NCBI GenBank assembly: GCA_025403435.1
Contig: CM046353.1
Location: forward strand, 14,122,836 to 14,186,835
DNA length: 64,000 bases
DNA from: Artocarpus heterophyllus
Taxonomy: Eukaryota > Streptophyta > Magnoliopsida > Rosales > Moraceae
Reading direction: 5' to 3'
The notes below the pieces were generated by a model. That model was not told the origin of the DNA, ran no database searches, and saw nothing but the letters and a program-made list of their open reading frames with translations. The number at the start of each line of letters is the position of its first letter. The stretch's first letter is position 1. Below are positions 23,259-50,659 of the stretch, piece by piece. The position numbers and the translations under genes were made by a program.

Positions 23259-23271
23259 ACTCTACCCCCTT
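23259..23271 (-). other. Polypurine tract of element A
   Basis: On the minus strand AAGGGGGTAGAGT lies directly before the 3' LTR, where plus-strand DNA synthesis is primed. The next 25 bp (ATTTCATCCTCGAAATTTC on the plus strand) match the same position in the gag-pol elements, showing that families A and B are related. Confidence 0.7.
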
Positions 23272-25732: not shown

Positions 25733-28507
25733 TGTAACACCCCTATGTGGGGGTTAACAGTTTTAAATAAATAAAAATAATTTTAAATTTTATATCATTT
25801 AAATCAATTAAACAATACCCATGGGTCTTTAAACAACAAGAAAAATAAAAATAAACGTTTTAAATACAAACCACAGTTTTTAGTGTAGCACCAAATATAT
25901 ATAATTACAGTCATCATCACCATAGTACAATTCCCAAATAACTTAACACAGCCATGAAACAAAATAATACAACTCTTACATGTTGTAGATAAGTTACAAA
26001 TAAACAAGGTCTTCTAACACGAAAACAGCAGGAATGTTTTCGCCTATTCCTCTTCAGATATGTTGCACTGAGTTCCACTTGAGATATGAAGATATGATAG
26101 GGATGAGCATCGACATGCCCAGTAGGGAAATCATGACTCACCTTATGGTTTATCCATTACCACATTAAAAACTGCATGGTTAGTAGGTTACATCATATTC
26201 CAGATTATGAGGTTTATTATGATCACATCTTGTGGATACCATAGTTAATCATTACCAAGTTTCATAATTACACATTTACACAAATATTACCAATCATCAT
26301 TGTTCTTAGGTATCCATGTTAAATGGAGTATCACTCAACTCATCGAAACCCAAATGGGCGCACTTGATCACCCTATAAACATTTCAAGGGTGTTCCGGTG
26401 AGGGGACATCAAGCCCCAAGTCCTCACCAAATCGATTCCTGTACAGTGTGTTCTGGGACTTTCAACCCAAGGAAGCGTCATCACCTTCCCCCTATTTTTC
26501 CTTTTAGGGTATTCGTGCCCAAGGACGTAACCGTCGCCCTTTTTACATCTCACTATTCCTTTGTATTCAATTTATATTTATAGAGTCAATTTCCTAACCA
26601 TGCTTCTCAATTTAGAACATATGTCAAATCATTATATTTATCGCTATACAATATACATAGTTTACAACATAAAACAATCAAATTTAATTTACCAAAAACC
26701 TCACAAAAGATGAGTAATAGAATCCCTACCTTCAAAGCTTAACAACAAACTTTTATTCTCGGAATTAATTAACGTTAGCTCCACATATCCTTGACCCTAA
26801 GGCATGCATAAGGACAATTAAAACTAAAGCACAACGTATAATCACATTCATAAGTGAATTATGTGTAAACCCGTCTACTAGTGCCATTAAAGTATTTTTA
26901 TGCAATTGTTCTTTAAATACCAAGTAATCAATTTTTATGTTTTAGTCTCTAATAAGAATTCATAAATCATTTAGGATAGTATTAGAAAGGTTGTAAGACA
27001 TTAAGAGACTAGAAGGTGAGCAAAGTTGGGTTTTTGGTTCAAGTTAACAGCTAGTATACCATGGCAACTTGGTGGTATATTTTTGTAAAAAGGCGGGTTC
27101 ACTATCTACAATTAACACACGGGTTAATAGGTGGTTTACTTAAGATAGACGGGTGGTTTATTACTACTGGCAGGTTTACTAGTTTCTAATCCGAAAATTG
27201 AAAAATTCATAGAAATTAAAATACAACTCCGATTTAGGCTCATGATAGCTCATTGGAAAGCTTAGGATGTCTACTTTTTAAATATGCAAACCAATTTACA
27301 AAATTCATTTTCATTTAACTCCAGAATTTTAAGAAATAGCCACTGCCCATAGAGGTATTATAAAGTTTATGGGATGTCAAATTTTTCTTTAACTTAAAGC
27401 ATATTATCCTTGTTTAAAATCTCAAAACCATTCCAAAATATGTAACATCCATTATATAATCACAATAAACATATTCTCATGAGTTTTATACCAAAATCAT
27501 TATCAAATTATATCTCTAGCTTTTCTTGTAAATAATGATGAAAACATGCTTAAATTTGCTCTTTAAGCTCAAAACATTAGAACACCAATCTTAAAGTTAT
27601 GGAAACCGGTTTTAAACATTCCTAACATGTTTCTAACATTGTCATCAAACCAAAATAAAAGTTGGTTGTGGGTTGTAACTCAAGACTCAAGTTTTTATTC
27701 ATAAATGTTTAAGGATGCATGTTAACATAACTAGAAATTTGCATGAATTTTGAACACGAAAATTATGCATTAAACATGGAGAAAATACATACTAAAAACT
27801 AAGTTTAGATTAAAGAAAACCTACCTCAAAACTTCTTTGAAAAGCACCAAAGTTCGGGTTAACAATCAAGCTTGAATTAACTCTAAAACCGCCTCGATCA
27901 TGGTTGGGAATTATAATTGTCTTGGCCACAAAGAGAGCTTTGTGCTCTATGTCTTTAGTTAGAAATTTGAAGTGAGAAAGGGAGAGAATGAGAACTAGAG
28001 AAGAAGGTGGTGATAGTTAAATAAAAAGATATCAAAATGCTTAAGAGAAATGGGATGTTTACGGGGGAAAGTTGTAAGAAGAAACAAAAGAGTCTTAAAG
28101 GAAAATATCATCTTGTCTCCCATGGAGACTTTTAGCAAATCATGCCAACATAATTGAGGGGACAATTGGAGTGAATTATAGAAGAAGATAAGGAAATAAT
28201 TAAATAGGTGGTTGAGAAAATATCTCCATGTCTTCTATGAATTGAGGGAAAATAATTCAATGTCCCCTTCATATACCTTTGGCAAAATGAGAAGAAGGCT
28301 ATATAATTGAGCAATAATTTAGGGAGACAAGATTGGTAGAAGTAAGTGTTGGTAAATTTTGAATGTTTCTTAGGAAGACTTGGTAAGAAAATACTAAAGT
28401 GGCATTTTTTTTTTTTAATGATCATAAACAACTTAGTAATTTTAAATAGTCACATTTTATTCATTAAATTTTACAAAATCATGCCCGTTAAAAATACGGG
28501 TGTTACA
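25733..28507 (-). repeat. LTR of family B, copy 1 (2775 bp), flanked by TCTTC on both sides
   Basis: Runs from TGTAACACCCC to CGGGTGTTACA on the plus strand. TCTTC at 25728-25732 and 28508-28512 makes it look like a solo LTR inside element A. The other two LTR-B copies have TCTTC only on their right side, which marks this copy as the one that keeps the original left junction. Confidence 0.85.
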
Positions 28508-28896
28508 TCTTCTCTATTCGTAGACATATAACTAGGTGAAGTATATTTACCGTTACAATTTTGTCTTCCACATTTGTTACAAGTGACCGCGATGGCATAA
28601 ACCCTTCTTTTCATCGCACTACGACTGGTACCTGTTTCTAGTAAACCGACATCTTGACTGAAGTCACTCGGAGGGATCTTCCCCTCTATCAACATTCTCA
28701 CATCATAAAGGATGCCAAAACGCATAAGAATCCACAACTGAGTGATCCTAGCCTTGTATTTCTTTCTGAGAATCTTTTGGGAGAGTGATGGGAAATACTT
28801 TCTCAGGTGTTGGTACTTTGGGTCCATGATAAAATGAAAGAAGAGAAAATAGAAAGGAAAAATTAAGACAACAAGTTGCAGAATCCTAGAATTCAT
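28471..28896 (-). CDS. Small ORF of element A (141 aa), copy 1, truncated by the LTR-B insertion
   Basis: I do not recognise this protein. It has a hydrophobic N-terminal stretch (residues about 6-23), then MDPKYQHLRKYF, a basic region, and a Cys group CNKCGRQNC near residue 110. The last 12 residues are read from the LTR, so the original protein was longer. Removing the LTR and one TCTTC continues the frame from position 25727 leftward for roughly 30 codons. If the first Met is not used, the Met at residue 24 is a likely start. It could be a captured host gene fragment or an element-specific protein. Confidence 0.45.
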   Translation of the reverse strand: MNSRILQLVVLIFPFYFLFFHFIMDPKYQHLRKYFPSLSQKILRKKYKARITQLWILMRFGILYDVRMLIEGKIPPSDFSQDVGLLETGTSRSAMKRRVYAIAVTCNKCGRQNCNGKYTSPSYMSTNREDVTPVFLTGMIL

Positions 28897-30438
28897 TCTC
28901 CTTTTAGAGAGAAAGAAAAATTTCTAGAGAAAAAGAAGAGGATTTGCGATTCAGAGAGAGAATAACAAATTAAAAGAGAAAGTAAGCTTGGAGAAATAAG
29001 CTCCTATGCACAGTAGACGTATATGTAAACAATGATTAAACCACTGTAGATGACATGTATAAAGGCCACATGGGAGAGACAATGTGAGTCAAACTAATTC
29101 AAGACTTGGACTAGGCCCAAATGTTCTAGGCTAAAATGGGCCGAGTTGTTTCAGGCCTTAACACATTTGGAACGAGTTAAATAACAAGCATGAATTTGAA
29201 ACTCAACTTATACAAATCTTAAGCCTAATTTGAAGGCCGCTTAAAACACAATTGACCAAAATAAATGACAAAACCCAATTTAATAAAAATCATAAGTTCC
29301 CTTGAATGTTATCCAAATCATTTCATAACAAAATCCTCTTATAACTTAAATAATTTGTTTTAATCAAAACATTATTGAACAATACAAACACTCCAATCTT
29401 ATCCTTTCTACTCAATATCTGTTAATATAGATCTATCATTAATACTACCAAGAGTTTTGAATATAACTAGTCTTAAAATCAATGTATTTTCTATCTTCCA
29501 ACATAGACCATATCAAAGAGCAAAGACCATTTATATTATTACTTAAAGACATCTACTATCCTCACAATCCTACTTATACAAGCTTTAATTTTCTCATATA
29601 ACAAAACCTCAAGTGACCACGAGAGTCACATTTTAGCATCTAAAGATTAAACCTTTCATTATAAAGATCCAAAATCATCAATGATGCCCTAAATATTATG
29701 ATTTACTTAATGAAACTTCTTTTCACACTATATTTATTCATAAAGATCATTGACTTCACTTAAACACAAGGTACGCAATAAAATATTCTAACCTTGAAAT
29801 TTAAGTATTATTTGCCTTTACACAATCTCAATAGACCAAAAATGAACATTTATCCCTCTTAAGATTCAATACCATGAATTTGTAACTTATCTCATATTGC
29901 TCAAGTAAATGGAACCTATAAGAAAATTTACCGAGACTTAAACACTCTGTCAAGTACACGCATAATCACTAGATAGGTTTAAATCAATTATGAAGAATTT
30001 AACATATCCAGGCCAAACTTTGAAATCAACAATTCAAACCTTATATTTTTCATTATTTTTCACAAGATAAACGGCCCTTGAATCCTCGTATCTATACGAA
30101 TTTCTCATCATTCTATACGAATTAGAAATGCTTATAGATCCTAGCATTATACGAATTTCTCATAAGCATTCTACATATAAACATATTCCTTATAATTATT
30201 ATTCCTACATAACCATTAATACTTTCATTCTACATAATCATTGCAGTCACATAACCGTTAATATTTCCATTCTAGGGTCTTTCCATATTACATCTTCATA
30301 GACTGTATAAATCAACCTGAAGGTTCATTTTGATGATGATATTGAAAATTAAACTTCAAAACCATCTCAAAAATAGATTTTTAAAGTGGTGCCGCACTCT
30401 CTAGGTTAACAGAACCTAGACTCTGATACCAAAAATTA
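28508..30438 (-). other. S1: right part of the family A internal region, copy 1
   Basis: 1931 bp of mostly noncoding AT-rich DNA. It carries the small ORF at its left end and, at its right end, a primer binding site complementary to initiator tRNA-Met (plus-strand 30419-30431), next to the chimeric LTR. No gag or pol sequence is present. Confidence 0.75.
30419..30431 (-). other. Primer binding site of S1 (tRNA-Met type)
   Basis: The minus strand reads TGGTATCAGAGTC, one base off the usual plant tRNA-iMet complement, 7 bp from the LTR. Confidence 0.75.
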
Positions 30439-30936
30439 TGTAATGCCCTAAGTGAGGGTTAATAGCTTTTAATAAATAAAAATAAATATAAAAATATAAA
30501 TAAAATATCAAAAGAAATTTGCCCGGGACTTAATTGAAAACTCTCAAAACAAAACAAAATATAAATAACAATAAAAACCACAGTTTAATGCAGCACCATA
30601 ATTTAATAATACAAAACTGTCATCATCATCATTCTAACCCTCAACAATTCTTAATATAGTCACATAAAAGTAACATTCGATGCTTACATTATCACGATGG
30701 ACATTTTTAGCAAACAAATAAGAAGAAGGCTATATAATTGAGCAATAATTTAGGGAGACAAGATTGGTAGAAGTAAGTGTTGGTAAATTTTGAATGTTTC
30801 TTAGGAAGACTTGGTAAGAAAATACTAAAGTGGCATTTTTTTTTTAATGATCATAAACAACTTAGTAATTTTAAATAGTCACATTTTATTCATTAAATTT
30901 TATAAAATCATGCCCGTTAAAAATACGGGTGTTACA
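30439..30936 (-). repeat. Chimeric A/B LTR, copy 1 (498 bp)
   Basis: The first ~280 bp match the left part of the family A LTR (compare 50660-50940). From about 30720 to 30936 the sequence matches the right end of LTR-B (28291-28507). The switch falls at GCAAACAAATAAGAAG, with a few bases shared by both parents. It lacks over 2 kb of LTR body. Confidence 0.85.
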
Positions 30937-30949
30937 GCTCGCCCCTCCT
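30937..30949 (-). other. Polypurine tract of the gag-pol element, copy 1
   Basis: The minus strand reads AGGAGGGGCGAGC, directly before the LTR end. It is the expected site for plus-strand priming. Confidence 0.7.
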
Positions 30950-31036
30950 ATAAAAATTTCATCCTCGAAATTTCGTACACTGATTACAATGTTAAAACAA
31001 ATGTGGATACTTTTCTCTCATTTCAGATTCAAGTTC

Positions 31037-31921
31037 CTATGTGGCTTCCTCCTCATCATGGTGTTGCCACATCACTTTCACCAGAGGAATTTCACGACGA
31101 CGTAATATTTTTATTTCATGATCCAGTATTTGAACTGGAATTTCTTCATAATTCGTATCTCCTTGAATTGGCACATCTGTCCACATGATCACATGTGAAG
31201 GGTCGGGTTCATACTTTCTCAACATCGATACATGAAACACATTATGTACATGAGACAATTGTGGTGGTAGGTCTAAACGGTATGCCAACATTCCAATGCA
31301 TTCCACAATCTCAAACGGTCTTGTATACCTTGGTGCTAACTTTCCTTTAACACCAAATCGAGATACACCTCGTTTTGGTTTCACTTTTAAGAACACAAAG
31401 TCTCCGATCATGAACTCTAAAGGTCGCCTCCTCTTATCTGCATAACTCTTTTGTCGACTTTGAGCTGTCTGAAGACGTTCGCGAATAATCTGGATCTTGT
31501 CCGTTGTTTCTCTGATAAACTGAGGCCCAAGTTCAAGACGCTCTTCCTTTTCAGCCCAACACAATGGAGATCTACAAGGTCTACCATATAAGGCCTCATA
31601 TGGAGTCATTCTAATACTTGCTTGGTAACTGTTGTTATATGCGAATTCAACATATGGCAGCTGTGCAGCCCAATTTGTTCCAAAGTCCAGCACACAAGCC
31701 CGAAGCATATCCTCGAGAATCTGAATGACACGTTCAGATTGTCCATCTGTTTGAGGATGAAAAGCTGTACTAAAATTCAATTGAGTTCCCAAGGCCCTCT
31801 GCAATCCTCTCCAAAATTTCGACGTGAAACGTGTATCTCTATCGAAAACTAGTGACATTGCAAAACTATTGACATTGGCACTCCATGCAATGTCACTACC
31901 TTTTCCACGTATAATTGACAT
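31037..31921 (-). CDS. G1 integrase C-terminal part and chromodomain (294 aa)
   Basis: Has the second and third integrase catalytic regions ([11 protein letters not shown] and QSERVIQ) and the GPY/F-like region, then [16 protein letters not shown] and a chromodomain-like end cut by a TAG. The first ~20 residues are out-of-frame read-through upstream of the frameshift. Confidence 0.85.
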
Positions 31922-33669
31922 AATTTTGAGACACTATAAGTAGTTCTGGTTGGGATGAAGTGGGCTGTCTTAGTTAAACGATCTACAATTACCCAAACGG
32001 CATCATGCCCTATTTGAGTCTTAGGAAATCCAGTAACAAAGTCCATTGTCACATGATCCCACTTCCATTCTGGAATAGGTAAGCTCCTCAACTCGCCTCC
32101 AGGCTTTTGATGTTCTGCTTTAACTTGTTGGCATGTCATGCACTTAGAGACAAAGGTTGCTACATCTCGTTTTATTCCTCGCCACCAGTATTGTCGTTTT
32201 AGATCCATATACATTTTTGTGCTTCCAGGATAAATAGTAAACTTTGAACGGTGAGCCTCATCTAGCACCGCATGCCTGAGATATGGATCCTTTGGAATAA
32301 CTAATCTTCCTTTGTAAAGTAAAAATCCTTCTGGCTCAATCTTCCATCCATCCAGTTGTTCTCCATTTTGTATTTGCTCCCAAACCCTACGTAATCCTTC
32401 ATTGTGCCATTGTCCTTGTTTTACTTTCTGAATTAACATAGGAGTTGCTATCACATTGAATAGGAAAGCTCTCTCGTCATCTTCATAATATTGCAAGTTG
32501 AAGTCGGCGATGGTGACTCGTCTCCAATCTTCCAATGCTAAACTGGCTATACGTCCGTTGTTCTTACGACTTAGAGCATCTGCCACGGCATTTGCTTTTC
32601 CAGGATGATATTGGATACTAAAGTCATAGTCCACCATGTACTCAGTCCATCTTCGTTGCCTTAGATTGAGATCCTTTTGAGTAAACAAATATTTCAGACT
32701 TTGATGATCTGAATATAGCTCGAACTTTGCGCCATATAGATAACATCTCCAAATTTTGAGTGCGAAAACCACAGCAGCTAACTCAAGATCATGTGTGGGG
32801 TAGTTCCTCTCATGGGGTTTCAACTGGCGTGAGGCGTAGGCAACTACTCGTCCATGCTGCATTAACACACAACCCAAACCATTTCCTGAGGCATCAGTGT
32901 ATACTGTGTAAGGCTCCTCGTTGTTAGGTATGATTAGCACAGGTGCACTAGTGAGTCTTCGCTTCAGTTCCTCAAATGCTTCTTCACATTTATCATCCCA
33001 CACGAACTTGACATTCTTCCTTGTGAGTTTTGTTAATGGAGAAGCAATCTTTGAAAAATTCTCTATGAAGCGTCGATAGTATCCAGCTAGTCTGAGGAAA
33101 CTTCGAATCTCCGACACGTTCTTTAGTCGTTCCCAGTTTAGCACTGCTTCAATTTTGGAGGGGTCCACTGAGATGCCTTCTTCAGAGACAACGTGTCCAA
33201 GGAACTTGACCTTCGTCATCCAGAAATCATATTTTTCTCTTTTTGCATAAAGACCATGTTCTCTCAACGTTTGTAGAGCGATCCTCAAATGCTCAGCATG
33301 TTCTTCTTCATTTTTAGAATAGATTAAGATATCATCTATGAAGACAATGATAAATTGATCTAAGTACGGTCGAAAGACATGGTTCATCAAGTCCATGAAA
33401 GCCGCTGGTGCATTAGTCAACCCGAAAGGCATGACAAGAAACTCAAAATGACCGTAGCGAGTCCGAAAAGCTGTCTTTGGAATGTCCTCTTCTCTTATCT
33501 TCAGTTGGTGATATCCGGATCGTAAGTCAATCTTTGAGAAATAGCAAGATCCTCCTAACTGATCGAACAACTCATCAATTCGGGGTAGAGGGTACTTGTT
33601 CTTGATAGTCAATCGATTAAGCTGGCGATAATCGACACAGAGCCTCAACGATCCGTCATGTTTCTTCAC
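31849..33669 (-). CDS. G1 reverse transcriptase - RNase H - integrase N-terminal fragment (606 aa)
   Basis: RT blocks: [31 protein letters not shown] and the catalytic FIDDILIYS. RNase H blocks: [20 protein letters not shown] and DALSR. Integrase zinc domain: HRSKF...KCMTCQQ, in which the second zinc His position reads Tyr (IYPG). The first integrase catalytic Asp is in MDFVTGFP. The frame is lost just before the second catalytic Asp, by a short duplicated insertion. Confidence 0.9.
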
Positions 33670-33714
33670 AAAAAGTACTGGAGCTCCCCAAGGTGATGTA
33701 CTTGGTCGAATAAA

Positions 33715-34545
33715 TCATTTTTCCAGTAATTCGTCCAACTGCTTCCTCAACTCCACTTTCTCAGCAGGTGCCATTCGATACGGAGCAATAGAAACAGGCG
33801 CTGCTCCTTGAGTTAGGTCGATGACAAACTCAATTTCTCTATTAGGCGGAAGTCCGGGCAATTCATCTGGAAAAACATCTGAAAATTCATCCACCACAGG
33901 AGTGTGAGAGGATAGGTCACTCTTCTTTAGTTCTCCATTTGAAGCAAAGATCGTCCCAAGATTGGTGAAATTCCTTCGTCCTCCAATACAAGCCTTTAGC
34001 ACCGGGGCTGGAGTCACTGTTCCTGTTTTTGCCTGAAATTTGATGACTTGTCCATTCTTGGTGAATAAAGAGACACGTTTCCTATGGCAATCTACTATTG
34101 CCTGGTATTTAGTTAGCCAATCCATTCCTAAGATTACATCAAACTCTGTCATAGTTATTACATATAGGTCAGCCGATAGTTTATGTTCTCCTATAACAAT
34201 ACACACTGATTTACAAATTATGGATACTTCAGCTATCCCGCCCATTGGTGTACTAAGGGTTAATGATGAACTACATGTCTCAGTTTCTAATTGTAGTACG
34301 GAAGCAAATAACATAGATATAAATGAATGAGTGGCACCAATGTCAAATAATACATGAGCCCAAGAATGAGACACGTGAATCATACCGTCTACAACTGAGT
34401 GATCAGCCTGTTTTGCTTGTCCAGCTGTAGCCGTAATTGCATAAGCTTGTGCTGGTGCTTTTCTTTTATCACTTTTTCCTCGGTTTCCTTGGCTACTACT
34501 AGCCTTATTATTATTTCTCCTAGAAAAATATGGCCTTTGATTCAC
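33715..34545 (-). CDS. G1 retropepsin-type protease fragment (276 aa)
   Basis: Holds the retroviral-type aspartic protease motif as FDIGATHSFIS, with Ile where Ser or Thr is usual, and the second block ILGMDWL. It continues into the start of RT (ELPGLPPNREIEF) before a TGA stop. Confidence 0.85.
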   Translation of the reverse strand: MNQRPYFSRRNNNKASSSQGNRGKSDKRKAPAQAYAITATAGQAKQADHSVVDGMIHVSHSWAHVLFDIGATHSFISMLFASVLQLETETCSSSLTLSTPMGGIAEVSIICKSVCIVIGEHKLSADLYVITMTEFDVILGMDWLTKYQAIVDCHRKRVSLFTKNGQVIKFQAKTGTVTPAPVLKACIGGRRNFTNLGTIFASNGELKKSDLSSHTPVVDEFSDVFPDELPGLPPNREIEFVIDLTQGAAPVSIAPYRMAPAEKVELRKQLDELLEK

Positions 34546-34734
34546 TGAGCCTTGTGGAGTCGGTTGGAAGTTCTGATTAGCATAGAAATTGGAACCCTGT
34601 GGCCGCTATTGGTAGTTGTATTGGGGCTGGAACCCTCAAGGTTGAGTTACTAAGACTTGGGAAGCTGGAGTGTTTTGCTGAGGTGCTCCACGATTTTGAC
34701 TCCCTCCCCAAACAGTGGACCCAAAATGACTTCC

Positions 34735-35196
34735 TTATGGCCTTGGTGCAAAGGATGATTGTGTAGGGCGGTTAGGGCAATTTCTCCTCAGATGTCCCAC
34801 TTGTCCACAGTTATGACAAGCATACGGTTGGAAACGACCACTGCCAGAAGATCCACCTCCAATAGTCACTCCACTATGCTGAATGGCTTGCCCTTGTGAC
34901 TTCTCTTTCTTACTTATTTTCCTTTGACGCCTGCTAGAACCCTTGTACTCTCCATAGGAGTTATTTAGTTCTGTCTCTGCCCGCTGTGCCGCAGCTACAA
35001 GATCAAGAAAATCTGTTGATGGAACAACAGCTATCATTTGTCTGATTTTCGGCCTCAGGTTATTTCTAAATTTTTCGCATCTTGCCATTGGATCCGATAC
35101 AGCCCTGGGATTGTAGCGAGACAATTCTATAAATTGAGCATGGTATTCAGCAACTGTTGTATCTCCCTGCACCAGGTTTTCAAATTCTCGCATCAT
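34735..35196 (-). CDS. G1 gag C-terminal fragment with CCHC zinc knuckle (153 aa)
   Basis: Contains gag core FENLVQGDTTVAEYHAQF, a basic stretch, and CHNCGQVGHLRRNC, a CX2CX4HX4C nucleic-acid-binding knuckle. It is in the same frame as the upstream block and ends in a TAA. Confidence 0.8.
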   Translation of the reverse strand: MMREFENLVQGDTTVAEYHAQFIELSRYNPRAVSDPMARCEKFRNNLRPKIRQMIAVVPSTDFLDLVAAAQRAETELNNSYGEYKGSSRRQRKISKKEKSQGQAIQHSGVTIGGGSSGSGRFQPYACHNCGQVGHLRRNCPNRPTQSSFAPRP

Positions 35197-35253
35197 TGCT
35201 TGCCTATGGCTCTGAGGAATATAGGTGTTGCGAAAAATGGTTTTGAACTGCTC

Positions 35254-35748
35254 CTATGTAAGATTCGGCACGTCATAGTCGTCTTTCTGAAGATCCCACC
35301 ATTCTTCGGCTTTACCCTCAAATATATATGTTGAAAAGCTAACCCAATACTCCCGTGGAATCCTCAAGGTGTCCAACTTCTTTTTGACTGCCTTTAGCCA
35401 TTGTTCTGCTATGACCGGGTTAGGTTCTCCACTAAATGTGGGTGGTTTCTGCTTCATAAACTCCTTCAACAGAGTTAGATGTCGTTGTTCGGGATCACGA
35501 ACCTCCACAGGTCTTTGCACATTTTGTAATGCTTGAAAAATTTGTCCTAAATTATTTACTTCTGGTGCAGCTGGCGGGGATTGTGATGCATGTCGTAGTT
35601 GCTCATCTTCTTGAGCTTGTTCCATCGGTTCCGGTTGCTCAACTTCTTGAGCATGTTCAACCGGTTGTGACAGCTCAGACGATTGCATTTGACGTCTTGG
35701 TGGCATAGTTTCTACTGGCTGCGAAAATTTAACTAGGATCAGTACCAA
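35254..35748 (-). CDS. G1 gag N-terminal fragment (164-aa frame)
   Basis: After a Gln/Glu/Pro-rich N-terminus it shows the retrotransposon gag core: PPTFSGEPNP, AEQWL and AEEWWDLQ. It ends at a TAG where the frame otherwise continues into the next gag block. 14 residues precede the more likely start MPPRRQ. Confidence 0.75.
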   Translation of the reverse strand: MVLILVKFSQPVETMPPRRQMQSSELSQPVEHAQEVEQPEPMEQAQEDEQLRHASQSPPAAPEVNNLGQIFQALQNVQRPVEVRDPEQRHLTLLKEFMKQKPPTFSGEPNPVIAEQWLKAVKKKLDTLRIPREYWVSFSTYIFEGKAEEWWDLQKDDYDVPNLT

Positions 35749-35837
35749 ATGATGATGACATTAACACCTAACTTTAAAACCATTTCCAAAGATTAATTTT
35801 TAAGGTGGTGCTATACCCCCTAGGTTAATCGAACCTA

Positions 35838-35850
35838 GGCTCTGATACCA
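35838..35850 (-). other. Primer binding site of G1 (tRNA-iMet)
   Basis: The minus strand reads TGGTATCAGAGCC, the standard plant initiator tRNA-Met primer site, 7 bp inside the 5' LTR border. Confidence 0.85.
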
Positions 35851-35857
35851 AAAATTC

Positions 35858-38986: not shown

Positions 38987-40529
38987 TCTCCTTTTAGAGA
39001 GAAAGAAAAATTTCTAGAGAGAAAGAAGAGGATTTGCGATTTAAAGAGAGAATAACAAATTAAAAGAGAAAGTAAGCTTGGAAAAATAAGCTCCTATGCA
39101 CAGTAGACATATATGTAAACAATGATTAAACCACTGTAGATGACACCTATGGAGGCCACATGGGAGAGACAATGTGAGTCAAACTAATTCAGGATTTGGA
39201 CTAGGCCCAAATGTTCTAAGCTGAAATGGGCCGAGTTGTTTCGGGCCTTAACACATTTGAAATGAGTTAAATAACAAGCATGAATTTGAAACTCAACTTA
39301 TACAAATCTTAAGCCTAATTTGAAGGCCGCTTAAAACACAATTGACCAAAATAAATGACAAAACCCAATTTAATAAAAATCATAAGTTCCCTTGAATGTT
39401 ATCCAAATCATTTCATAACAAAATCCTCTTGTAACTTAAATAATTTGTTTTAATCAAAACATTATTGAACAATACAGACACTCCAATCTTATCCTCACTA
39501 CTCAATATCCGTTAATATAGATCTATCATTAATACTACTAAGAGTTTCGAATGTAACTAGTCTTAAAATCAATATATTTTATGTCTTCCAACATAGACCA
39601 TATCAAAGAGCAAAGACCATTAATATTATTACTTAAAGACATCTACTATCCTCACAATCCTACTTATACAAGCTTTAATTTTCTCATATAACAAAACCTC
39701 AAGTGACCACGAGAGTCACATTTAAGTATCTAAAGATTAAACCTTTCATTATAAAGATCCAAAATCATCAATGATGCCCTAAATATTATGATTTACTTAA
39801 TGAAACTTCTTTTCACACTATATTTATTCATAAAGATCATTGACTTCACTTAAACACAAGATACGCAACAAAATATTCCAACCTTGAAATTTAAGTATTA
39901 TTTGCCTTTACACAACCTCAATAGACCAAAAGATGAACATTTGTCCCTCTTAAGATTCAATACCATGAATTCCTAACTTATCTCATATTGTTCAAGTAAA
40001 TGGAACCTATAAGAAAATTTACCGAGACTTAAACACTCTGTCAAGTACATGCATAATCACTACATAGGTTTAAATCAATTATGAAGAATTTAACATATCT
40101 AGGCCAAACATTGAAATCAACAACTCAAACCTCATATTTCTCATTATTTTTCACAAGATAAACGGCCATTGAATCCTCGTATCTATACGAATTTCTCATC
40201 ATTATATACGAATTAGAAATGCTTATAGATCCTAGCATTATACGAATTTCTCATAAGCATTCTACATATAAACATATTCCTTATAATTATTATTCCTACA
40301 TAACCATTAATACTTTCATTCTACATAATCATTGCAGTCACATAACCGTTAATATTTCCATTCTAGGGTCTTTCCATATTACATCTTCATAGACTGTATA
40401 AATCAACCTGAAGGTTCATTTTGATGATGACATTGAAAATTAAACTTCAAAACCATCTCAAAAATAGATTTTTAAAGTGGTGCCGCACTCTCTAGGTTAA
40501 CAGAACCTAGACTCTGATACCAAAAATTA
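38598..40529 (-). other. S2: right part of the family A internal region, copy 2
   Basis: Same layout as S1, with a PBS-like site at 40510-40522. The first ~400 bp are almost identical to S1 and S3, while the distal part shows clearly more substitutions. Confidence 0.75.
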
Positions 40530-41029
40530 TGTAATGCCCTAAGTGAGGGTTAATAGCTTTTAATAAATAAAAATAAATATCAAAAAATATAAATAAAACA
40601 TCAAAAGAAATTTGCCTAGGACTTAATTGAAAACTCTCAAAACAAAACAAAATATAAACAACAATAAAAACCACAGTTTAATGCAGCACCATAATTTAAT
40701 AATACAAAACTGTCATCATCATCATTCTAACCCTCAACAATTCTTAATATAGTCACATAAAAGTAACATTCGATGCTTACATTATCACGATGGACATTTT
40801 TAGCAAACAAATAAGAAGAAGGCTATATAATTGAGCAATAATTTAGGGAGACAAGATTGGTAGAAGTAAGTGTTGGTAAATTTTGAATGTTTCTTAGGAA
40901 GACTTGGTAAGAAAATACTAAAGTGGCATTTTTTTTTTAATGATCATAAACAACTTAGTAATTTTAAATAGTCACATTTTATTCATTAAATTTTATAAAA
41001 TCATGCCCGTTAAAAATACGGGTGTTACA
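40530..41029 (-). repeat. Chimeric A/B LTR, copy 2 (500 bp)
   Basis: Same A-to-B junction as copy 1, at about 40806-40813. A few substitutions and small indels separate the two, mostly in the A-derived part. Confidence 0.85.
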
Positions 41030-41129
41030 GCTCGCCCCTCCTATAAAAATTTCATCCTCGAAATTTCGTACACTGATTACAATGTTAAAACAAATGTGGA
41101 TACTTTTCTCTCATTTCAGATTCAAGTTC

Positions 41130-42014
41130 CTATGTGGCTTCCTCCTCATCATGGTGTTGCCACATCACTTTCACCAGAGGAATTTCACGACGACGTAATA
41201 TTTTTATTTCATGATCCAGTATTTGAACTGGAATTTCTTCATAATTCGTATCTCCTTGAATTGGCACATCTGTCCACATGATCACATGTGAAGGGTCGGG
41301 TTCATACTTTCTCAACATCGATACATGAAACACATTATGTACATGAGACAATTGTGGTGGTAGGTCTAAACGGTATGCCAACATTCCAATGCATTCCACA
41401 ATCTCAAACGGTCTTGTATACCTTGGTGCTAACTTTCCTTTAACACCAAATCGAGATACACCTCGTTTTGGTTTCACTTTTAAGAACACAAAGTCTCCGA
41501 TCATGAACTCTAAAGGTCGCCTCCTCTTATCTGCATAACTCTTTTGTCGACTTTGAGCTGTCTGAAGACGTTCGCGAATAATCTGGATCTTGTCCGTTGT
41601 TTCTCTGATAAACTGAGGCCCAAGTTCAAGACGCTCTTCCTTTTCAGCCCAACACAATGGAGATCTACAAGGTCTACCATATAAGGCCTCATATGGAGTC
41701 ATTCTAATACTTGCTTGGTAACTGTTGTTATATGCGAATTCAACATATGGCAGCTGTGCAGCCCAATTTGTTCCAAAGTCCAGCACACAAGCCCGAAGCA
41801 TATCCTCGAGAATCTGAATGACACGTTCAGATTGTCCATCTGTTTGAGGATGAAAAGCTGTACTAAAATTCAATTGAGTTCCCAAGGCCCTCTGCAATCC
41901 TCTCCAAAATTTCGACGTGAAACGTGTATCTCTATCGAAAACTAGTGACATTGCAAAACTATTGACATTGGCACTCCATGCAATGTCACTACCTTTTCCA
42001 CGTATAATTGACAT
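41130..42014 (-). CDS. G2 integrase C-terminal part and chromodomain (294 aa)
   Basis: Matches the G1 block at 31037-31921, with the same TAG inside the chromodomain. Confidence 0.85.
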
Positions 42015-43762
42015 AATTTTGAGACACTATAAGTAGTTCTGGTTGGGATGAAGTGGGCTGTCTTAGTTAAACGATCTACAATTACCCAAACGGCGTCATG
42101 CCCTATTTGAGTCTTAGGAAATCCAGTAACAAAGTCCATTGTCACATGATCCCACTTCCATTCTGGAATAGGTAAGCTCCTCAACTCGCCTCCAGGCTTT
42201 TGATGTTCTGCTTTAACTTGTTGGCACGTCATGCACTTAGAGACAAAGGTTGCTACATCTCGTTTTATTCCTCGCCACCAGTATTGTCGTTTTAGATCCA
42301 TATACATTTTTGTGCTTCCAGGATAAATAGTAAACTTTGAACGGTGAGCCTCATCTAGCACCGCATGCCTGAGATATGGATCCTTTGGAATAACTAATCT
42401 TCCTTTGTAAAGTAAAAATCCTTCTGGCTCAATCTTCCATCCATCCAGTTGTTCTCCATTTTGTATTTGCTCCCAAACCCTACGTAATCCTTCATTGTGC
42501 CATTGTCCTTGTTTTACTTTCTGAATTAACATAGGAGTTGCTATCACATTGAATAGGAAAGCTCTCTCGTCATCTTCATAATATTGCAAGTTGAAGTCGG
42601 CGATGGTGACTCGTCTCCAATCTTCCAATGCTAAACTGGCTATACGTCCGTTGTTCTTACGACTTAGAGCATCTGCCACGGCATTTGCTTTTCCAGGATG
42701 ATATTGGATACTAAAGTCATAGTCCACCATGTACTCAGTCCATCTTCGTTGCCTTAGATTGAGATCCTTTTGAGTAAACAAATATTTCAGACTTTGATGA
42801 TCTGAATATAGCTCGAACTTTGCGCCATATAGATAACATCTCCAAATTTTGAGTGCGAAAACCACAGCAGCTAACTCAAGATCATGTGTGGGGTAGTTCC
42901 TCTCATGGGGTTTCAACTGGCGTGAGGCGTAGGCAACTACTCGTCCATGCTGCATTAACACACAACCCAAACCATTTCCTGAGGCATCAGTGTATACTGT
43001 GTAAGGCTCCTCGTTGTTAGGTATGATTAGCACAGGTGCACTAGTGAGTCTTCGCTTCAGTTCCTCAAATGCTTCTTCACATTTATCATCCCACACGAAC
43101 TTGACATTCTTCCTTGTGAGTTTTGTTAATGGAGAAGCAATCTTTGAAAAATTCTCTATGAAGCGTCGATAGTATCCAGCTAGTCTGAGGAAACTTCGAA
43201 TCTCCGACACGTTCTTTAGTCGTTCCCAGTTTAGCACTGCTTCAATTTTGGAGGGGTCCACTGAGATGCCTTCTTCAGAGACAACGTGTCCAAGGAACTT
43301 GACCTTCGTCATCCAGAAATCATATTTTTCTCTTTTTGCATAAAGACCATGTTCTCTCAACGTTTGTAGAGCGATCCTCAAATGCTCAGCATGTTCTTCT
43401 TCATTTTTAGAATAGATTAAGATATCATCTATGAAGACAATGATAAATTGATCTAAGTACGGTCGAAAGACATGGTTCATCAAGTCCATGAAAGCCGCTG
43501 GTGCATTAGTCAACCCGAAAGGCATGACAAGAAACTCAAAATGACCGTAGCGAGTCCGAAAAGCTGTCTTTGGAATGTCCTCTTCTCTTATCTTCAGTTG
43601 GTGATATCCGGATCGTAAGTCAATCTTTGAGAAATAGCAAGATCCTCCTAACTGATCGAACAACTCATCAATTCGGGGTAGAGGGTACTTGTTCTTGATA
43701 GTCAATCGATTAAGCTGGCGATAATCGACACAGAGCCTCAACGATCCGTCATGTTTCTTCAC
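41942..43762 (-). CDS. G2 reverse transcriptase - RNase H - integrase N-terminal fragment (606 aa)
   Basis: Protein identical, as far as I can see, to the G1 block at 31849-33669, including FIDDILIYS and the Tyr at the second zinc-ligand position. It is likewise cut off before the second integrase Asp. Confidence 0.9.
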
Positions 43763-43807
43763 AAAAAGTACTGGAGCTCCCCAAGGTGATGTACTTGGTC
43801 GAATAAA

Positions 43808-44638
43808 TCATTTTTCCAGTAATTCGTCCAACTGCTTCCTCAAGTCCACTTTCTCAGCAGGTGCCATTCGATACGGAGCAATAGAAACAGGCGCTGCTCC
43901 TTGAGTTAGGTCGATGACAAACTCAATTTCTCTATTAGGCGGAAGTCCGGGCAATTCATCTGGAAAAACATCTGAAAATTCATCCACCACAGGAGTGTGA
44001 GAGGATAGGTCACTCTTCTTTAGTTCTCCATTTGAAGCAAAGATCGTCCCAAGATTGGTGAAATTCCTTCGTCCTCCAATACAAGCCTTTAGCACCGGGG
44101 CTGGAGTCACTGTTCCTGTTTTTGCCTGAAATTTGATGACTTGTCCATTCTTGGTGAATAAAGAGACACGTTTCCTATGGCAATCTACTATTGCCTGGTA
44201 TTTAGTTAGCCAATCCATTCCTAAGATTACATCAAACTCTGTCATAGTTATTACATATAGGTCAGCCGATAGTTTATGTTCTCCTATAACAATACACACT
44301 GATTTACAAATTATGGATACTTCAGCTATCCCGCCCATTGGTGTACTAAGGGTTAATGATGAACTACATGTCTCAGTTTCTAATTGTAGTACGGAAGCAA
44401 ATAACATAGATATAAATGAATGAGTGGCACCAATGTCAAATAATACATGAGCCCAAGAATGAGACACGTGAATCATACCGTCTACAACTGAGTGATCAGC
44501 CTGTTTTGCTTGTCCAGCTGTAGCCGTAATTGCATAAGCTTGTGCTGGTGCTTTTCTTTTATCACTTTTTCCTCGGTTTCCTTGGCTACTACTAGCCTTA
44601 TTATTATTTCTCCTAGAAAAATATGGCCTTTGATTCAC
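43808..44638 (-). CDS. G2 retropepsin-type protease fragment (276 aa)
   Basis: Same FDIGATHSFIS motif as G1 and the same terminating TGA, with a single Glu-to-Asp difference near the C-terminus. Confidence 0.85.
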   Translation of the reverse strand: MNQRPYFSRRNNNKASSSQGNRGKSDKRKAPAQAYAITATAGQAKQADHSVVDGMIHVSHSWAHVLFDIGATHSFISMLFASVLQLETETCSSSLTLSTPMGGIAEVSIICKSVCIVIGEHKLSADLYVITMTEFDVILGMDWLTKYQAIVDCHRKRVSLFTKNGQVIKFQAKTGTVTPAPVLKACIGGRRNFTNLGTIFASNGELKKSDLSSHTPVVDEFSDVFPDELPGLPPNREIEFVIDLTQGAAPVSIAPYRMAPAEKVDLRKQLDELLEK

Positions 44639-44827
44639 TGAGCCTTGTGGAGTCGGTTGGAAGTTCTGATTAGCATAAAAATTGGAACCCTGTGGCCGCT
44701 ATTGGTAGTTGTATTGGGGCTGGAACCCTCAAGGTTGAGTTACTAAGACTTGGGAAGCTGGAGTGTTTTGCTGAGGTGCTCCACGATTTTGACTCCCTCC
44801 CCAAACAGTGGATCCAAAATGACTTCC

Positions 44828-45289
44828 TTATGGCCTTGGTGCAAAGGATGATTGTGTAGGGCGGTTAGGGCAATTTCTCCTCAGATGTCCCACTTGTCCA
44901 CAGTTATGACAAGCATACGGTTGGAAACGACCACTGCCAGAAGATCCACCTCCAATAGTCACTCCACTATGCTGAATGGCTTGCCCTTGTGACTTCTCTT
45001 TCTTACTTATTTTCCTTTGACGCCTGCTAGAACCCTTGTACTCTCCATAGGAGTTATTTAGTTCTGTCTCTGCCCGCTGTGCCGCAGCTACAAGATCAAG
45101 AAAATCTGTTGATGGAACAACAGCTATCATTTGTCTGATTTTCGGCCTCAGGTTATTTCTAAATTTTTCGCATCTTGCCATTGGATCCGATACAGCCCTG
45201 GGATTGTAGCGAGACAATTCTATAAATTGAGCATGGTATTCAGCAACTGTTGTATCTCCCTGCACCAGGTTTTCAAATTCTCGCATCAT
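44828..45289 (-). CDS. G2 gag C-terminal fragment with CCHC zinc knuckle (153 aa)
   Basis: Same protein as the G1 block at 34735-35196, including CHNCGQVGHLRRNC. Confidence 0.8.
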   Translation of the reverse strand: MMREFENLVQGDTTVAEYHAQFIELSRYNPRAVSDPMARCEKFRNNLRPKIRQMIAVVPSTDFLDLVAAAQRAETELNNSYGEYKGSSRRQRKISKKEKSQGQAIQHSGVTIGGGSSGSGRFQPYACHNCGQVGHLRRNCPNRPTQSSFAPRP

Positions 45290-45346
45290 TGCTTGCCTAT
45301 GGCTCTGAGGAATATAGGTGTTGCGAAAAATGGTTTCGAACTGCTC

Positions 45347-45841
45347 CTATGTAAGATTCGGCACGTCATAGTCGTCTTTCTGAAGATCCCACCATTCTTC
45401 GGCTTTACCCTCAAATATATATGTTGAAAAGCTAACCCAATACTCCCGTGGAATCCTCAAGGTGTCCAACTTCTTTTTGACTGCCTTTAGCCATTGTTCT
45501 GCTATGACCGGGTTAGGTTCTCCACTAAATGTGGGTGGTTTCTGCTTCATAAACTCCTTCAACAGAGTTAGATGTCGTTGTTCGGGATCACGAACCTCCA
45601 CAGGTCTTTGCACATTTTGTAATGCTTGAAAAATTTGTCCTAAATTATTTACTTCTGGTGCAGCTGGCGGGGATTGTGATGCATGTCGTAGTTGCTCATC
45701 TTCTTGAGCTTGTTCCATCGGTTCCGGTTGCTCAACTTCTTGAGCATGTTCAACCGGTTGTGACAGCTCAGACGATTGCATTTGACGTCTTGGTGGCATA
45801 GTTTCTACTGGCTGCGAAAATTTAACTAGGATCAGTACCAA
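45347..45841 (-). CDS. G2 gag N-terminal fragment (164-aa frame)
   Basis: Same as the G1 block at 35254-35748, ending at the same TAG. Confidence 0.75.
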   Translation of the reverse strand: MVLILVKFSQPVETMPPRRQMQSSELSQPVEHAQEVEQPEPMEQAQEDEQLRHASQSPPAAPEVNNLGQIFQALQNVQRPVEVRDPEQRHLTLLKEFMKQKPPTFSGEPNPVIAEQWLKAVKKKLDTLRIPREYWVSFSTYIFEGKAEEWWDLQKDDYDVPNLT

Positions 45842-45950
45842 ATGATGATGACATTAACACCTAACTTTAAAACCATTTCCAAAGATTAATTTTTAAGGTG
45901 GTGTTATACCCCCTAGGTTAATCGAACCTAGGCTCTGATACCAAAAATTC

Positions 45951-48725
45951 TGTAACACCCCTATGTGGGGGTTAACAGTTTTAAATAAATAAAAATAATT
46001 TTAAATTTTATATCATTTAAATCAATTAAATAATGCCCATGGGTCTTTAAACAACAAGAAAAATAAAAATAAACATTTTAAATACAAACCATAGTTTTTA
46101 GTGTAGCACCAAATATATATAATTACAGTCATCATCACCATAGTACAATTCCCAAATAACTTAACACAGCCATGAAACAAAATAATACAACTCTTACATG
46201 TTGTAGATAAGTTAAAAATAAACAAGGTCTTCTAACACGAAAACAGTAGGAATGTTTTCGCCTATTCCTCTTCAGATATGTTGCACTGAGTTCCACCTGA
46301 GATATGAATATATGATAGGGATGAGCATCGACATGCCCAGTAGGGAAATCATGACTCACCTTATGGTTTATCCATTACCACATTAAAAACTGCATGGTTA
46401 GTAGGTTACATCATATTCCAGATTATGAGGTTTATTATGATCACATCTTGTGGATACCATAGTTAATCATTACCAAGTTTCATAATTACACATTTACACA
46501 AATATTACCAATCATCATTGTTCTTAGGTATCCATGTTAAATAGAGTATCACTCAACTCATCGAAACCCAAATGGGCGCACTTGATCACCCTATAAACAT
46601 TTCAAGGGTGTTCCGGTGAGGGGACATCAAGCCCCGAGTCCTCACCAAATCGATTCCTGTACAGTGTGTTCTGGGACTTTCAACCCAAGGAAGCGTCATC
46701 ACCTTCCCCCTATTTTTCCTTTTAGGGTATTCGTGCCCAAGGACGTAACCGTTGCCCTTTTTACATCTCACTATTCCTTTGTATTCAATTTATATTTATA
46801 GAGTCAATTTCCTAACCATGCTTCTCAATTTATAACATATGTCAAATCATTATATTTATCGCTATACAATATACATATTTTACAACATAAAACAATCAAA
46901 TTTAATTTACCAAAAACCTCACAAAAGATGAGTAATAGAATCCCTACCTTCAAAGCTTAACAACAAACTTTTATTCTCGGAATTAATTAACGTTAGCTCC
47001 ACATATCCTTGACCCTAAGGCATGCATAAGGACAATTAAAACTAAAGCACAACGTATAATCACATTCATAAGTGAATTATGTGTAAACCCGTCTACTAGT
47101 GCCATTAAAGTATTTTTATGCAATTGTTCTTTAAATACCAAGTAATCAATTTTTATGTTTTAGTCTCTAATAAGAATTCATAAATCATTTAGGATAGTAT
47201 TAGAAAGGTTGTAAGACATTAAGAGACTAGAAGGTGAGCAAAGTTGGGTTTTTGGTTCAAGTTAACAGCTAGTATACCATGGCAACTTGGTGGTATATTT
47301 TTGTAAAAAGGCGGGTTCACTATCTACAATTAACACACGGGTTAATAGGTGGTTTACTTAAGATAGACGGGTGGTTTATTACCACTGGCAGGTTTACTAG
47401 TTTCTAATCCGAAAATTGAAAAATTCATAGAAATTAAAATACAACTCCGATTTAGGCTCATGATAGCTCATTGGAAAGCTTAGGATGTCTACTTTTTAAA
47501 TATGCAAACCAATTTACAAAATTCATTTTCATTTAACTCCAGAATTTTAAGAAATAGCCACTGCCCATAGAGGTATTATAAAGTTTATGGGATGTCAAAT
47601 TTTTCTTTAACTTAAAGCATATTATCCTTGTTTAAAATCTCAAAACCATTCCAAAATATGTAACATCCATTATATAATCACAATAAACATATTCTCATGA
47701 GTTTTATACCAAAATCATTATCAAATTATATCTCTAGCTTTTCTTGTAAATAATGATGAAAACATGCTTAAATTTGCTCTTTAAGCTCAAAACATTAGAA
47801 CACCAATCTTAAAGTTATGGAAACCGGTTTTAAACATTCCTAACATGTTTCTAACATTGTCATCAAACCAAAATAAAAGTTGGTTGTGGGTTGTAACTCA
47901 AGACTCAAGTTTTTATTCATAAATGTTTAAGGATGCATGTTAACATAACTAGAAATTTGCATGAATTTTGAACACGAAAATTATGCATTAAACATGGAGA
48001 AAATACATACTAAAAACTAAGTTTAGATTAAAGAAAACCTACCTCAAAACTTCTTTGAAAAGCACCAAAGTTCGGGTTAACAATCAAGCTTGAATTAACT
48101 CTAAAACCGCCTCGATCATGGTTGGGAATTATAATTGTCTTGGCCACAAAGAGAGCTTTGTGCTCTATGTCTTTAGTTAGAAATTTGAAGTGAGAAAGGG
48201 AGAGAATGAGAACTAGAGAAGAAGGTGGTGATAGTTAAATAAAAAGATATCAAAATGCTTAAGAGAAATGGGATGTTTACGGGGGAAAGTTGTAAGAAGA
48301 AACAAAAGAGTCTTAAAGGAAAATATCATCTTGTCTCCCATGGAGACTTTTAGCAAATCATGCCAACATAATTGAGGGGACAATTGGAGTGAATTATAGA
48401 AGAAGATAAGGAAATAATTAAATAGGTGGTTGAGAAAATATCTCCATGTCTTCTATGAATTGAGGGAAAATAATTCAATGTCCCCTTCGGATACCTTTGG
48501 CAAAATGAGAAGAAGGCTATATAATTGAGCAATAATTTAGGGAGACAAGATTGGTAGAAGTAAGTGTTGGTAAATTTTGAATGTTTCTTAGGAAGACTTG
48601 GTAAGAAAATACTAAAGTGGCATTTTTTTTTTTTAATGATCATAAACAACTTAGTAATTTTAAATAGTCACATTTTATTCATTAAATTTTACAAAATCAT
48701 GCCCGTTAAAAATACGGGTGTTACA
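45951..48725 (-). repeat. LTR of family B, copy 3 (2775 bp)
   Basis: Full length, like copy 1, and without the 35-bp deletion of copy 2. The right side is followed by TCTTC at 48726-48730 and by S3. Confidence 0.85.
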
Positions 48726-49114
48726 TCTTCTCTATTCGTAGACATATAACTAGGTGAAGTATATTTACCGTTACAATTTTGTCTTCCACATTTGTTACAA
48801 GTGACCGCGATGGCATAAACCCTTCTTTTCATCGCACTACGACTGGTACCTGTTCCTAGTAAACCGACATCTTGACTGAAGTCACTCGGAGGGATCTTCC
48901 CCTCTATCAACATTCTCACATCATAAAGGATGCCAAAACGCATAAGAATCCACAACTGAGTGATCCTAGCCTTGTATTTCTTTCTGAGAATCTTTTGGGA
49001 GAGTGATGGGAAATACTTTCTCAGGTGTTGGTACTTTGGGTCCATGATAAAATGAAAGAAGAGAAAATAGAAAGGAAAAATTAAGACAGCAAGTTGCAGA
49101 ATCCTAGAATTCAT
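48689..49114 (-). CDS. Small ORF of element A, copy 3 (141 aa)
   Basis: Identical to copy 2 in protein sequence. Its last 12 codons lie in LTR-B, as in the other copies. Confidence 0.4.
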   Translation of the reverse strand: MNSRILQLAVLIFPFYFLFFHFIMDPKYQHLRKYFPSLSQKILRKKYKARITQLWILMRFGILYDVRMLIEGKIPPSDFSQDVGLLGTGTSRSAMKRRVYAIAVTCNKCGRQNCNGKYTSPSYMSTNREDVTPVFLTGMIL

Positions 49115-50659
49115 TCTCCTTTTAGAGAGAAAGAAAAATTTCTAGAGAAAAAGAAGAGGATTTGCGATTCAGAGAGAGAATAACAAATTAAAAGAGAAAG
49201 TAAGCTTGGAGAAATAAGCTCCTATGCACAGTAGACGTATATGTAAACAATGATTAAACCACTGTAGATGACATGTATAAAGGCTATGTGGGAGAGACAA
49301 TGTGAGTCAAACTAATTCAAGACTTGGACTAGGCCCAAATGTTCTAAGCTAAAATGGGCCAAGTTGTTTTAGGCCTTAACACATTTAGAACGAGTTAAAT
49401 AACAAGCATGAAATTGAAACCCAACTTATACAAATCTTAAGCCCAATTTGAAGTCCTCTTAAAACACAATTGACCAAACTAATTGACAAAACCCAATTTA
49501 ATAAAAATCATAAGTTCCTCTGAATGTTATCCAAATCATTGCATAACAACGAAATCCTCTTGTAACTTAAATAATTTATTTTAATCAAGACATTATTGAA
49601 CAATAAAGACACTCCTATCTTATCCTTAATACTCAATATTCGTTAATATAGATCTACCATTAATACTACCAAGAGTTTCGAATATAACTAGTCTTAAAAT
49701 CAATGTATTTTCTATCTTCCAACATAGACCATATCAAAGAGCAAAGACCATTTATATTATTACTTAAAGACATCTACTATCCTCACAATCCTACTTATAC
49801 AAGCTTTAATTTTCTCATATAACAAAACCTCAAGTGACCACGAGAGTCACATTTAAGTATCTAAAGATTAAACCTTTCATTATAAAGATCCAAAATCATC
49901 AATGATGCCCTAAATATTATGATTTACTTAATGAAACTTCTTTTCACACTATATTTATTCATAAAGATCATTGACTTCACTTAAACACAAGGTACGCAAT
50001 AAAATATTCTAACCTTGAAATTTAAGTATTATTTGCCTTTACACAATCTCAATAGACCAAAAATGAACATTTATCCCTCTTAAGATTCAATACCATGAAT
50101 TTCTAACTTACCTCATATTGCTCAAGTAAATGGAACCTAGAAGAAAATTTACCGAAACTTAAACACTCTGTCAAGTACATGCATAATCACTACATAGGTT
50201 TAAATCAATTATAAAGAATTTAACATATCTAGGCCAAATTTTGAAATCAACAACTCAAACCTTATATTTCTCATTATTTTTCACAAGATAAACGGCCCTT
50301 GAATCCTGGTATCTACACGAATTTCTCATCATTCTATACGAATTAGAAATGTTTATAGATCCTAGCATTATACGAATTTCTCATAAGCATTCTACATATA
50401 AACCCATTCTTTATAATTATTATTCCTACATAACCATTAATACTTTCATTCTACATAATCATCGCAGTCACATAACCGTTAATATTTCCATGTTAGGGCC
50501 TTGGAATATTACATTATCTTAGACTGTATAAATCATCCTGAAGGTTCATTTTGATGATGATATTGAAAATTCAACTTCAAAACCATCTCGAAAACAGATT
50601 TTTAAAGTGGTGCCACACTCTCTAGGTTAACCGAACCTAGGCTCTGATATCAAAAATTC
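48726..50659 (-). other. S3: right part of the family A internal region, copy 3 (original junction with LTR-A)
   Basis: The only S copy followed by a full family A LTR, so its right junction is probably the original one. The PBS at 50640-50652 carries one substitution (TGATATCAGAGCC on the minus strand). The distal part differs from S1 and S2 at many positions. Confidence 0.75.

Follow-up and report, generated by a model that had tools for sequence, protein, structure and literature searches.

Tandem retroelement units at one locus of Artocarpus heterophyllus are best explained, with a probability of about 0.55, as a layered array in which a segment (S) of an older element A had already been multiplied, probably in an older A tandem, before a second element, B, arrived, and in which recombination then spread the B block. 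The locus lies in the window, i.e., the whole 64,000-nt stretch that was analyzed (contig C27, positions 14122836–14186835), and the genome searched comprises 985 Mb in 334 contigs. The array occupies window positions 25733–50942 and consists of two and a half tandem copies of a unit of approximately 10.1 kb, in which LTR-B, S, a chimeric LTR of 0.5 kb, and gag-pol follow one another in a repeated order. It is enclosed by element A (20964–52877), which is older and carries TACCA at both ends. Neighbouring frames in the window correspond to a PP2A B56 subunit and a pectate lyase.

All features are on the minus strand. The left LTR-A (20964–23258), preceded by TACCA, is the 3′ LTR of element A and is followed by the left part of its internal region (A-left, 23259–25732), which ends in TCTTC and includes a LOG-like frame (24244–24723) matching named proteins of poplar and other plants. 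The first unit comprises a solo LTR-B (copy 1, 25733–28507), S copy 1 (28508–30438), chimeric LTR 1 (30439–30936), and INT-B copy 1 (30937–35857), the gag-pol region in several separate frames. S is the right part of the internal region of element A, up to the primer-binding side. The second unit comprises LTR-B copy 2 (35858–38597, 35 nt shorter), S copy 2 (38598–40529), chimeric LTR 2 (40530–41029), and INT-B copy 2 (41030–45950), and the remaining half unit LTR-B copy 3 (45951–48725) and S copy 3 (48726–50659). The right LTR-A (50660–52877), the 5′ LTR of element A, follows and is itself followed by TACCA. A sequence-only reading of this DNA had given the three LTR-B starts and the recurring order of the four parts; the starts were recovered exactly and the order was the same. 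This is not the plain tandem pattern LTR-INT-LTR-INT-LTR, because LTR-B, S, and a chimeric LTR stand between the INT-B copies. Comparison of the window with itself yielded one off-diagonal block of 15.1 kb (35855–50942 versus 25730–40812) with 98.2% identity, a value that is the mean over very unequal parts.

LTR-B runs from TGTAACACCC to GGGTGTTACA and is 2775 nt long (2740 nt in copy 2), and INT-B (4921 nt) has its polypurine side on the left and its primer-binding side on the right. Pfam matches are in the Ty3/gypsy order, i.e., gag with a zinc knuckle, RVP_2, RVT_1, RNase H, Integrase_H2C2, and SH3_Tf2-1, and are spread over five separate open pieces, with five pieces of equal lengths in the second copy; no Pfam match to the integrase core domain was obtained in the five open pieces. 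Ordinary B elements, with LTRs of approximately 2.8 kb and an internal region of 4.9 kb, are present at four other loci, and their internal regions are 97.5–97.7% identical to the local INT-B. Element A is distinct: A-left and S copy 3 match INT-B over only 109 columns beside the right LTR and 32 beside the left, and the open frame of S gave a single, uninformative match.

Element B inserted once in element A. TCTTC is found on both sides of the first LTR-B and on only the S side of the second and third, so that it precedes the first LTR-B and follows the last, and TACCA surrounds element A as a whole. Furthermore, nine relatives of element A were fetched, in two of which the match begins inside S; all of the seven tested lack B, and A-left continues directly into S with an overlap of 4–5 nt. 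The five letters at this empty site are TCTTC in two of the seven and one letter off in the rest. Insertion of B at TCTTC in element A, as proposed from the sequence alone, is borne out by the target duplication around the first LTR-B and by the empty site. The same holds for the proposal that the units multiplied by DNA recombination and not by transposition, since they carry S, which is element A DNA lying outside the target duplication of B. Transposition of the tandem as such was rejected because of this position of S and because units 2 and 3 have no target duplication of their own. The related explanation that the tandem was made during retrotransposition, as multi-LTR or read-through cDNA, and inserted in that form draws on tandem LTR elements of rice that lie within one target duplication (PMC11899658), and yet here S is carried by units 2 and 3, each B copy has two unlike LTRs (LTR-B and the chimera), and neither of these units is flanked by a target duplication. 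We regard it as extremely improbable; the anatomy contradicts such an origin for the B array, whereas it is possible for the older A tandem.

The chimeric LTRs join the head of LTR-A (276 nt) to the tail of LTR-B (approximately 222 nt) at an identical point in both units, and the motif AAAT at the join is common to LTR-A, LTR-B, and the chimera. Among the 40 matches listed (the best 40 of 2211 candidates scored), the junction was spanned by two, both local. The proposed join between the head of LTR-A and the tail of LTR-B is upheld by its presence at this locus only among the matches listed and by the shared AAAT. The chimera was also considered as a normal LTR produced by template switching and rejected, because the element has a complete LTR-B as its second LTR and because the chimera lies colinear with both S and LTR-A. 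Between the two chimera tails there is no difference (0/221), and each of the three LTR-B tails is set apart from them by two substitutions and by a T run that differs in length by 2 nt. The substitutions are private to the chimera tails, and one of them adjoins the join and could be its scar; the T run keeps the shorter state of copies outside the locus. These differences are as expected if the tails derived from the old left LTR of B, as judged from the sequences. The chimera heads differ by 7% from the head of the right LTR of element A itself and are for this reason not a recent copy of it. An extrachromosomal circle carrying the chimeric junction and reintegrated by homologous recombination would generate the same junction and order as a duplication in place, and no feature found in the sequence distinguishes between these routes; a circle alone does not, however, explain the older divergence of S described below, and this origin is considered quite improbable.

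The first LTR-B (25733–28507) is a single LTR between identical TCTTC duplications, with no internal region, as in a solo LTR. The three LTR-B copies differ by 19/2740, 16/2775, and 6/2740 sites (pairs 1-2, 1-3, and 2-3, the order used for all divergence counts). The 20 variable sites, polarized by four other full LTRs, comprise six derived jointly in copies 2 and 3, eight in copy 1, five in copy 2, and one in copy 3. The six sites at which copies 2 and 3, but not copy 1, are derived all fall in nt 81–359, with none in nt 360–2775, so that copy 1 switches lineage near nt 360: its part to the left is descended from the old left LTR, and the remainder belongs with copies 2 and 3. The solo LTR had been attributed to LTR-LTR recombination, and the variants switch lineage as that account predicts.

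Divergence along the unit is highly uneven. For its description, S was divided into nt 1–420, S-mid (nt 421–1575), and S-dist (nt 1576–1931), followed by the A head (276 nt). The INT-B copies differ at 7/4921 sites (0.14%; 99.86% identity), and the full S copies at 50, 69, and 87 of 1931. Within S, the first 420 nt show 2, 2, and 0 differences (0–0.5%), S-mid 46, 42, and 60 of 1155 (3.6–5.2%), and S-dist 2, 25, and 27 of 356; the A head shows 4–5, 19–20, and 17–19 of 276 in two alignments. At the end of S and in the head, unit 3 is approximately 7% from units 1 and 2 (44/632 for 1-3), whereas units 1 and 2 differ there by approximately 1% (2/356 and 4/276), and this portion is consistent with recent copying. 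S-mid in all pairs, and the end of S with the head in unit 3 versus units 1 and 2, are about 25–50 times more diverged than INT-B; for S-mid of units 2 and 3 versus INT-B, p = 3e-36, in a test that, like the other divergence tests below, assumes independent sites and uses segment bounds set after the data were seen. A segment scan, whose numbering runs on from S into the A head, placed the diverged stretch at nt 421–1620 (1-2), 541–2200 (1-3), and 421–2200 (2-3), so that S copy 2 departs from S copy 1 over nt 421–1620 and S copy 3 from approximately nt 541 to its end. The log-likelihood gains of 26.7, 56.0, and 87.6 exceed all shuffled maxima (11.6, 12.6, and 9.8; 200 shuffles for each pair).

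The copies that are the odd one out in the diverged stretch come in runs (45 versus a mean of 70 in 20,000 shuffles). At 14 sites in S-mid, S1 and S3 share a state where S2 keeps that of most dispersed copies; at 19 sites in S-dist and the head, S1 and S2 do so where S3 keeps that of most dispersed copies. As judged from these site patterns, S is a mosaic, and since the grouping changes from S1 with S3 in S-mid to S1 with S2 further right, additional exchange tracts are needed. Plain block amplification predicts equal divergence over the unit and was rejected as a complete account. The suggestion that a tandem unit formed and then amplified to three consequently stands in part only: the approximately 1% divergence of the end of S and the head between units 1 and 2 agrees with it, and the unequal divergence over the unit does not. 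In the earlier history as a whole, insertion, join, DNA recombination, and solo LTR are retained, and uniform amplification of one unit is not. The idea that S nt 1–420 was spared as unique captured host DNA was also rejected, since S is present from its beginning in dispersed copies of A. The same figures bear on an assembly duplication or a false haplotype join, for which the 99.86% identity of the INT-B copies might speak, the array being known here from the assembly. The three S copies are nevertheless distinguishable (3.6–5.2% apart in S-mid), the chimeric junction was not found elsewhere among the matches listed, and both target duplications are intact, which together make an artifact very unlikely.

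The diverged parts of S appear to be older than the stay of B at this locus. Both local INT-B copies share 47 substitutions in 4921 nt that are absent from five others, which suggests about 1% per lineage since B left its family, as an upper bound for its stay here. The LTRs of B (3′ versus 5′) diverge at approximately 10/580 sites (approximately 1.7%), eight in LTR nt 1–359 and two in the 221 nt of the tail, a comparison limited to 580 nt in which one of the ten differences is adjacent to the join of the chimera and may be its scar. The divergence of S-dist with the head between units 1 and 3 (44/632) exceeds this value (p = 9e-6), as does that of S-mid (p = 4e-4 for 2-3; p = 0.014 for 1-2). 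Because they are more diverged than B's own LTRs, these S and head copies would be either older than B or brought in by separate recombination. The two LTRs of element A differ at 140/2209 sites (6.3%), close to the depth of the S and head splits, and in age the splits seem closer to A than to B.

In an alternative account, the earlier history is true and gene conversion later altered S-mid, S-dist, and the A heads, the donors being A copies lacking B, whether dispersed, on the homologous chromosome, or on a homoeologue. Element A has many dispersed copies (at least 44 matches to S1 listed, three of them local, with 40 of 3102 candidates scored), a donor lacking B would be unable to convert B and perhaps also leave untouched the S sequence beside the B junction, and the S2 tract of approximately 1.2 kb (nt 421–1620) resembles a conversion tract. 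By contrast, a close donor for the old S variants was seen neither among the matches listed, where dispersed copies reach at most 93% identity to S1 and head matches outside element A at most 91% (contig C21, where the fetched stretch contains a truncated A-like LTR and no S), nor among nine dispersed copies compared, each of which is at least 5.4% from S2-mid and at least 7.0% from S1-dist. There are 11 variants that a single local copy shares with just one of the dispersed copies, and they are scattered. Trees that include the nine dispersed copies unite the three local copies in one clade for S-mid (support 0.994) and for the head (0.995); in the S-dist tree, such a clade has a support of only 0.201. 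A local source for the old variants fits these comparisons better than import from dispersed copies in the assembly, and the conversion account as a whole, with donors on the homologous chromosome or a homoeologue included, is considered somewhat unlikely.

A tandem of element A of the kind required by the layered history is present elsewhere in the genome: on contig C17, A internal regions alternate with single shared LTRs (LTR-INT-LTR-INT-LTR), with 92.6% identity between units and with flanks (ATTTA and ACTTA) that agree in four of five letters. At the locus itself the older A tandem is inferred, because self-comparison of the window revealed no middle LTR-A body and no second A-left between the units. 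In the layered history, element A would have inserted long ago with the duplication TACCA and, at or after insertion, would have formed a tandem of internal regions sharing LTRs, whose S copies and LTR heads then diverged. Much later, a single B inserted between A-left and S of what would be the leftmost unit, as its target duplication and empty site attest. A microhomology-sized join between the head of a middle LTR-A and the tail of the left LTR of B, preserved in the observed junction, may have created a repeat carrying B. Sister or allelic units could then have undergone unequal exchange and gene conversion, by which the chimera, INT-B, and LTR-B, together with the first approximately 420 nt of S, spread to neighbouring S copies, and the remainder of S would have stayed old or been swapped in tracts, as the divergence pattern suggests. 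Finally, the left LTR of B recombined with the next LTR-B to leave the solo LTR, as the flanking TCTTC and the lineage switch show. One workable path would begin with an A tandem of three internal regions, the first of which B enters; an exchange within S, between the unit carrying B and the last one, would produce unit 3, and a further unequal exchange would add unit 2 with its S-mid swapped, other orders being possible. The layered history leaves unexplained the end of the recent block near S nt 420–540 in units 2 and 3. The array is likely a by-product of double-strand-break repair with no selected function.

More generally, it is proposed tentatively, at slightly less than even odds, that an element landing in the tandem of another element spreads to neighbouring units by array recombination together with flanking host-element DNA, and so gains copies and a chimeric LTR without transposing; if so, such spread is recognizable by the contrast in age within the unit. 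Unequal divergence along the unit shows how the order of events can be read, and dating such arrays from a single segment misleads. The array adds about 25 kb and may offer homologies of 8–10 kb for further copy-number change.

Tandem LTR-retrotransposons are common in plants and have been reported in rice, Arabidopsis, almond, and cotton (Morales-Diaz et al., 2025, PMC11899658). According to that survey, the rice tandems at both loci studied in detail lie within one target duplication, 10 of 28 curated tandems have perfect 5-nt duplications, and an origin at the time of transposition was proposed as one option for them; the choice between complex insertion and chromosomal recombination was left open, and more complex structures were filtered out. 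The present array resembles these tandems in having tandem internal regions in a plant, here between the TACCA copies of element A, solo, single, and tandem forms occurring at one locus in the survey as well, and a tandem nested in another element is also known there (TLI2 in a MULE). The C17 tandem of element A is of this plain kind. In the survey's tandems, however, the units share one LTR, whereas here LTR-B, host-element DNA, and a chimeric LTR of two families separate the gag-pol copies, and the captured flank settles the matter in favour of recombination. With DNA from beyond the target duplication of the inserted element in its units, the array answers the survey's question for one locus. 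In the literature on tandem, nested, and chimeric LTR structures, in the parts consulted, no description was found of a two-family unit with captured host-element DNA and an internal age contrast, which is not proof of absence. For the maize centromeric retrotransposon repeats CRM1TR and CRM4TR, an illegitimate LTR join within one element or between nested elements has been proposed (Sharma et al., 2013, PMC3648361), followed by growth and homogenization through gene conversion, and recombinant monomers are described, as envisaged here; those repeats are LTR-UTR monomers in long arrays, whereas the present unit is 10 kb long, contains gag-pol, joins two diverged families, and has a low copy number. 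The maize P1-wr cluster likewise has tandem units with patchily shared polymorphisms, which were attributed to unequal crossover and gene conversion (PMC2686159), although its repeats are genes and those described here are retroelement units. Lastly, LTR-B copy 1 resembles the solo LTRs with identical 5-bp duplications that are ascribed to LTR-LTR recombination in two reports (PMC7251063, PMC2686159), from which it differs in that its partner LTR came from the same tandem array.

A plain tandem of the family of element A, the older LTR retrotransposon in which the array is nested, is located on another contig of the same genome (G000:C17:18874130-18889827) in the order LTR-INT-LTR-INT-LTR, with 92.6% likeness between units. 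The divergence among its own segments is uneven, at 2.2% in S-mid (nt 421-1575 of S, the right part of the element A internal region) and 7.7% in the first 420 nt of S. In the array, the recently shared part of the S copies carries a 138-codon open frame (48728-49141, minus strand), for which a single match is known, at 85% identity across half of its length.

A solo LTR akin to the LTRs of element A (56455-59031) has TTCAT on either side, and a B-type element comprising two LTRs and an internal region lies next to the array and extends past the window end (63401 to 72228 in window numbering); its internal region is 97.4% alike to that of element B, the nested Ty3/gypsy element, and the same middle part of LTR-B is missing from both of its LTRs. 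Self-comparison of the window additionally revealed two inverted repeat pairs, i.e., 61409-61676 with 62168-62430 (arms 83% alike) and 8295-8536 with 8875-9114 (arms 73% alike).

Element A also contains an uninterrupted LOG-like open frame (24244-24723, minus strand) with a Lysine_decarbox domain match, which is 46% identical to a poplar protein and 78% to one other protein; a YgdH/LOG domain has been reported from Ty3/gypsy elements in Citrus and poplar (PMC9289625).
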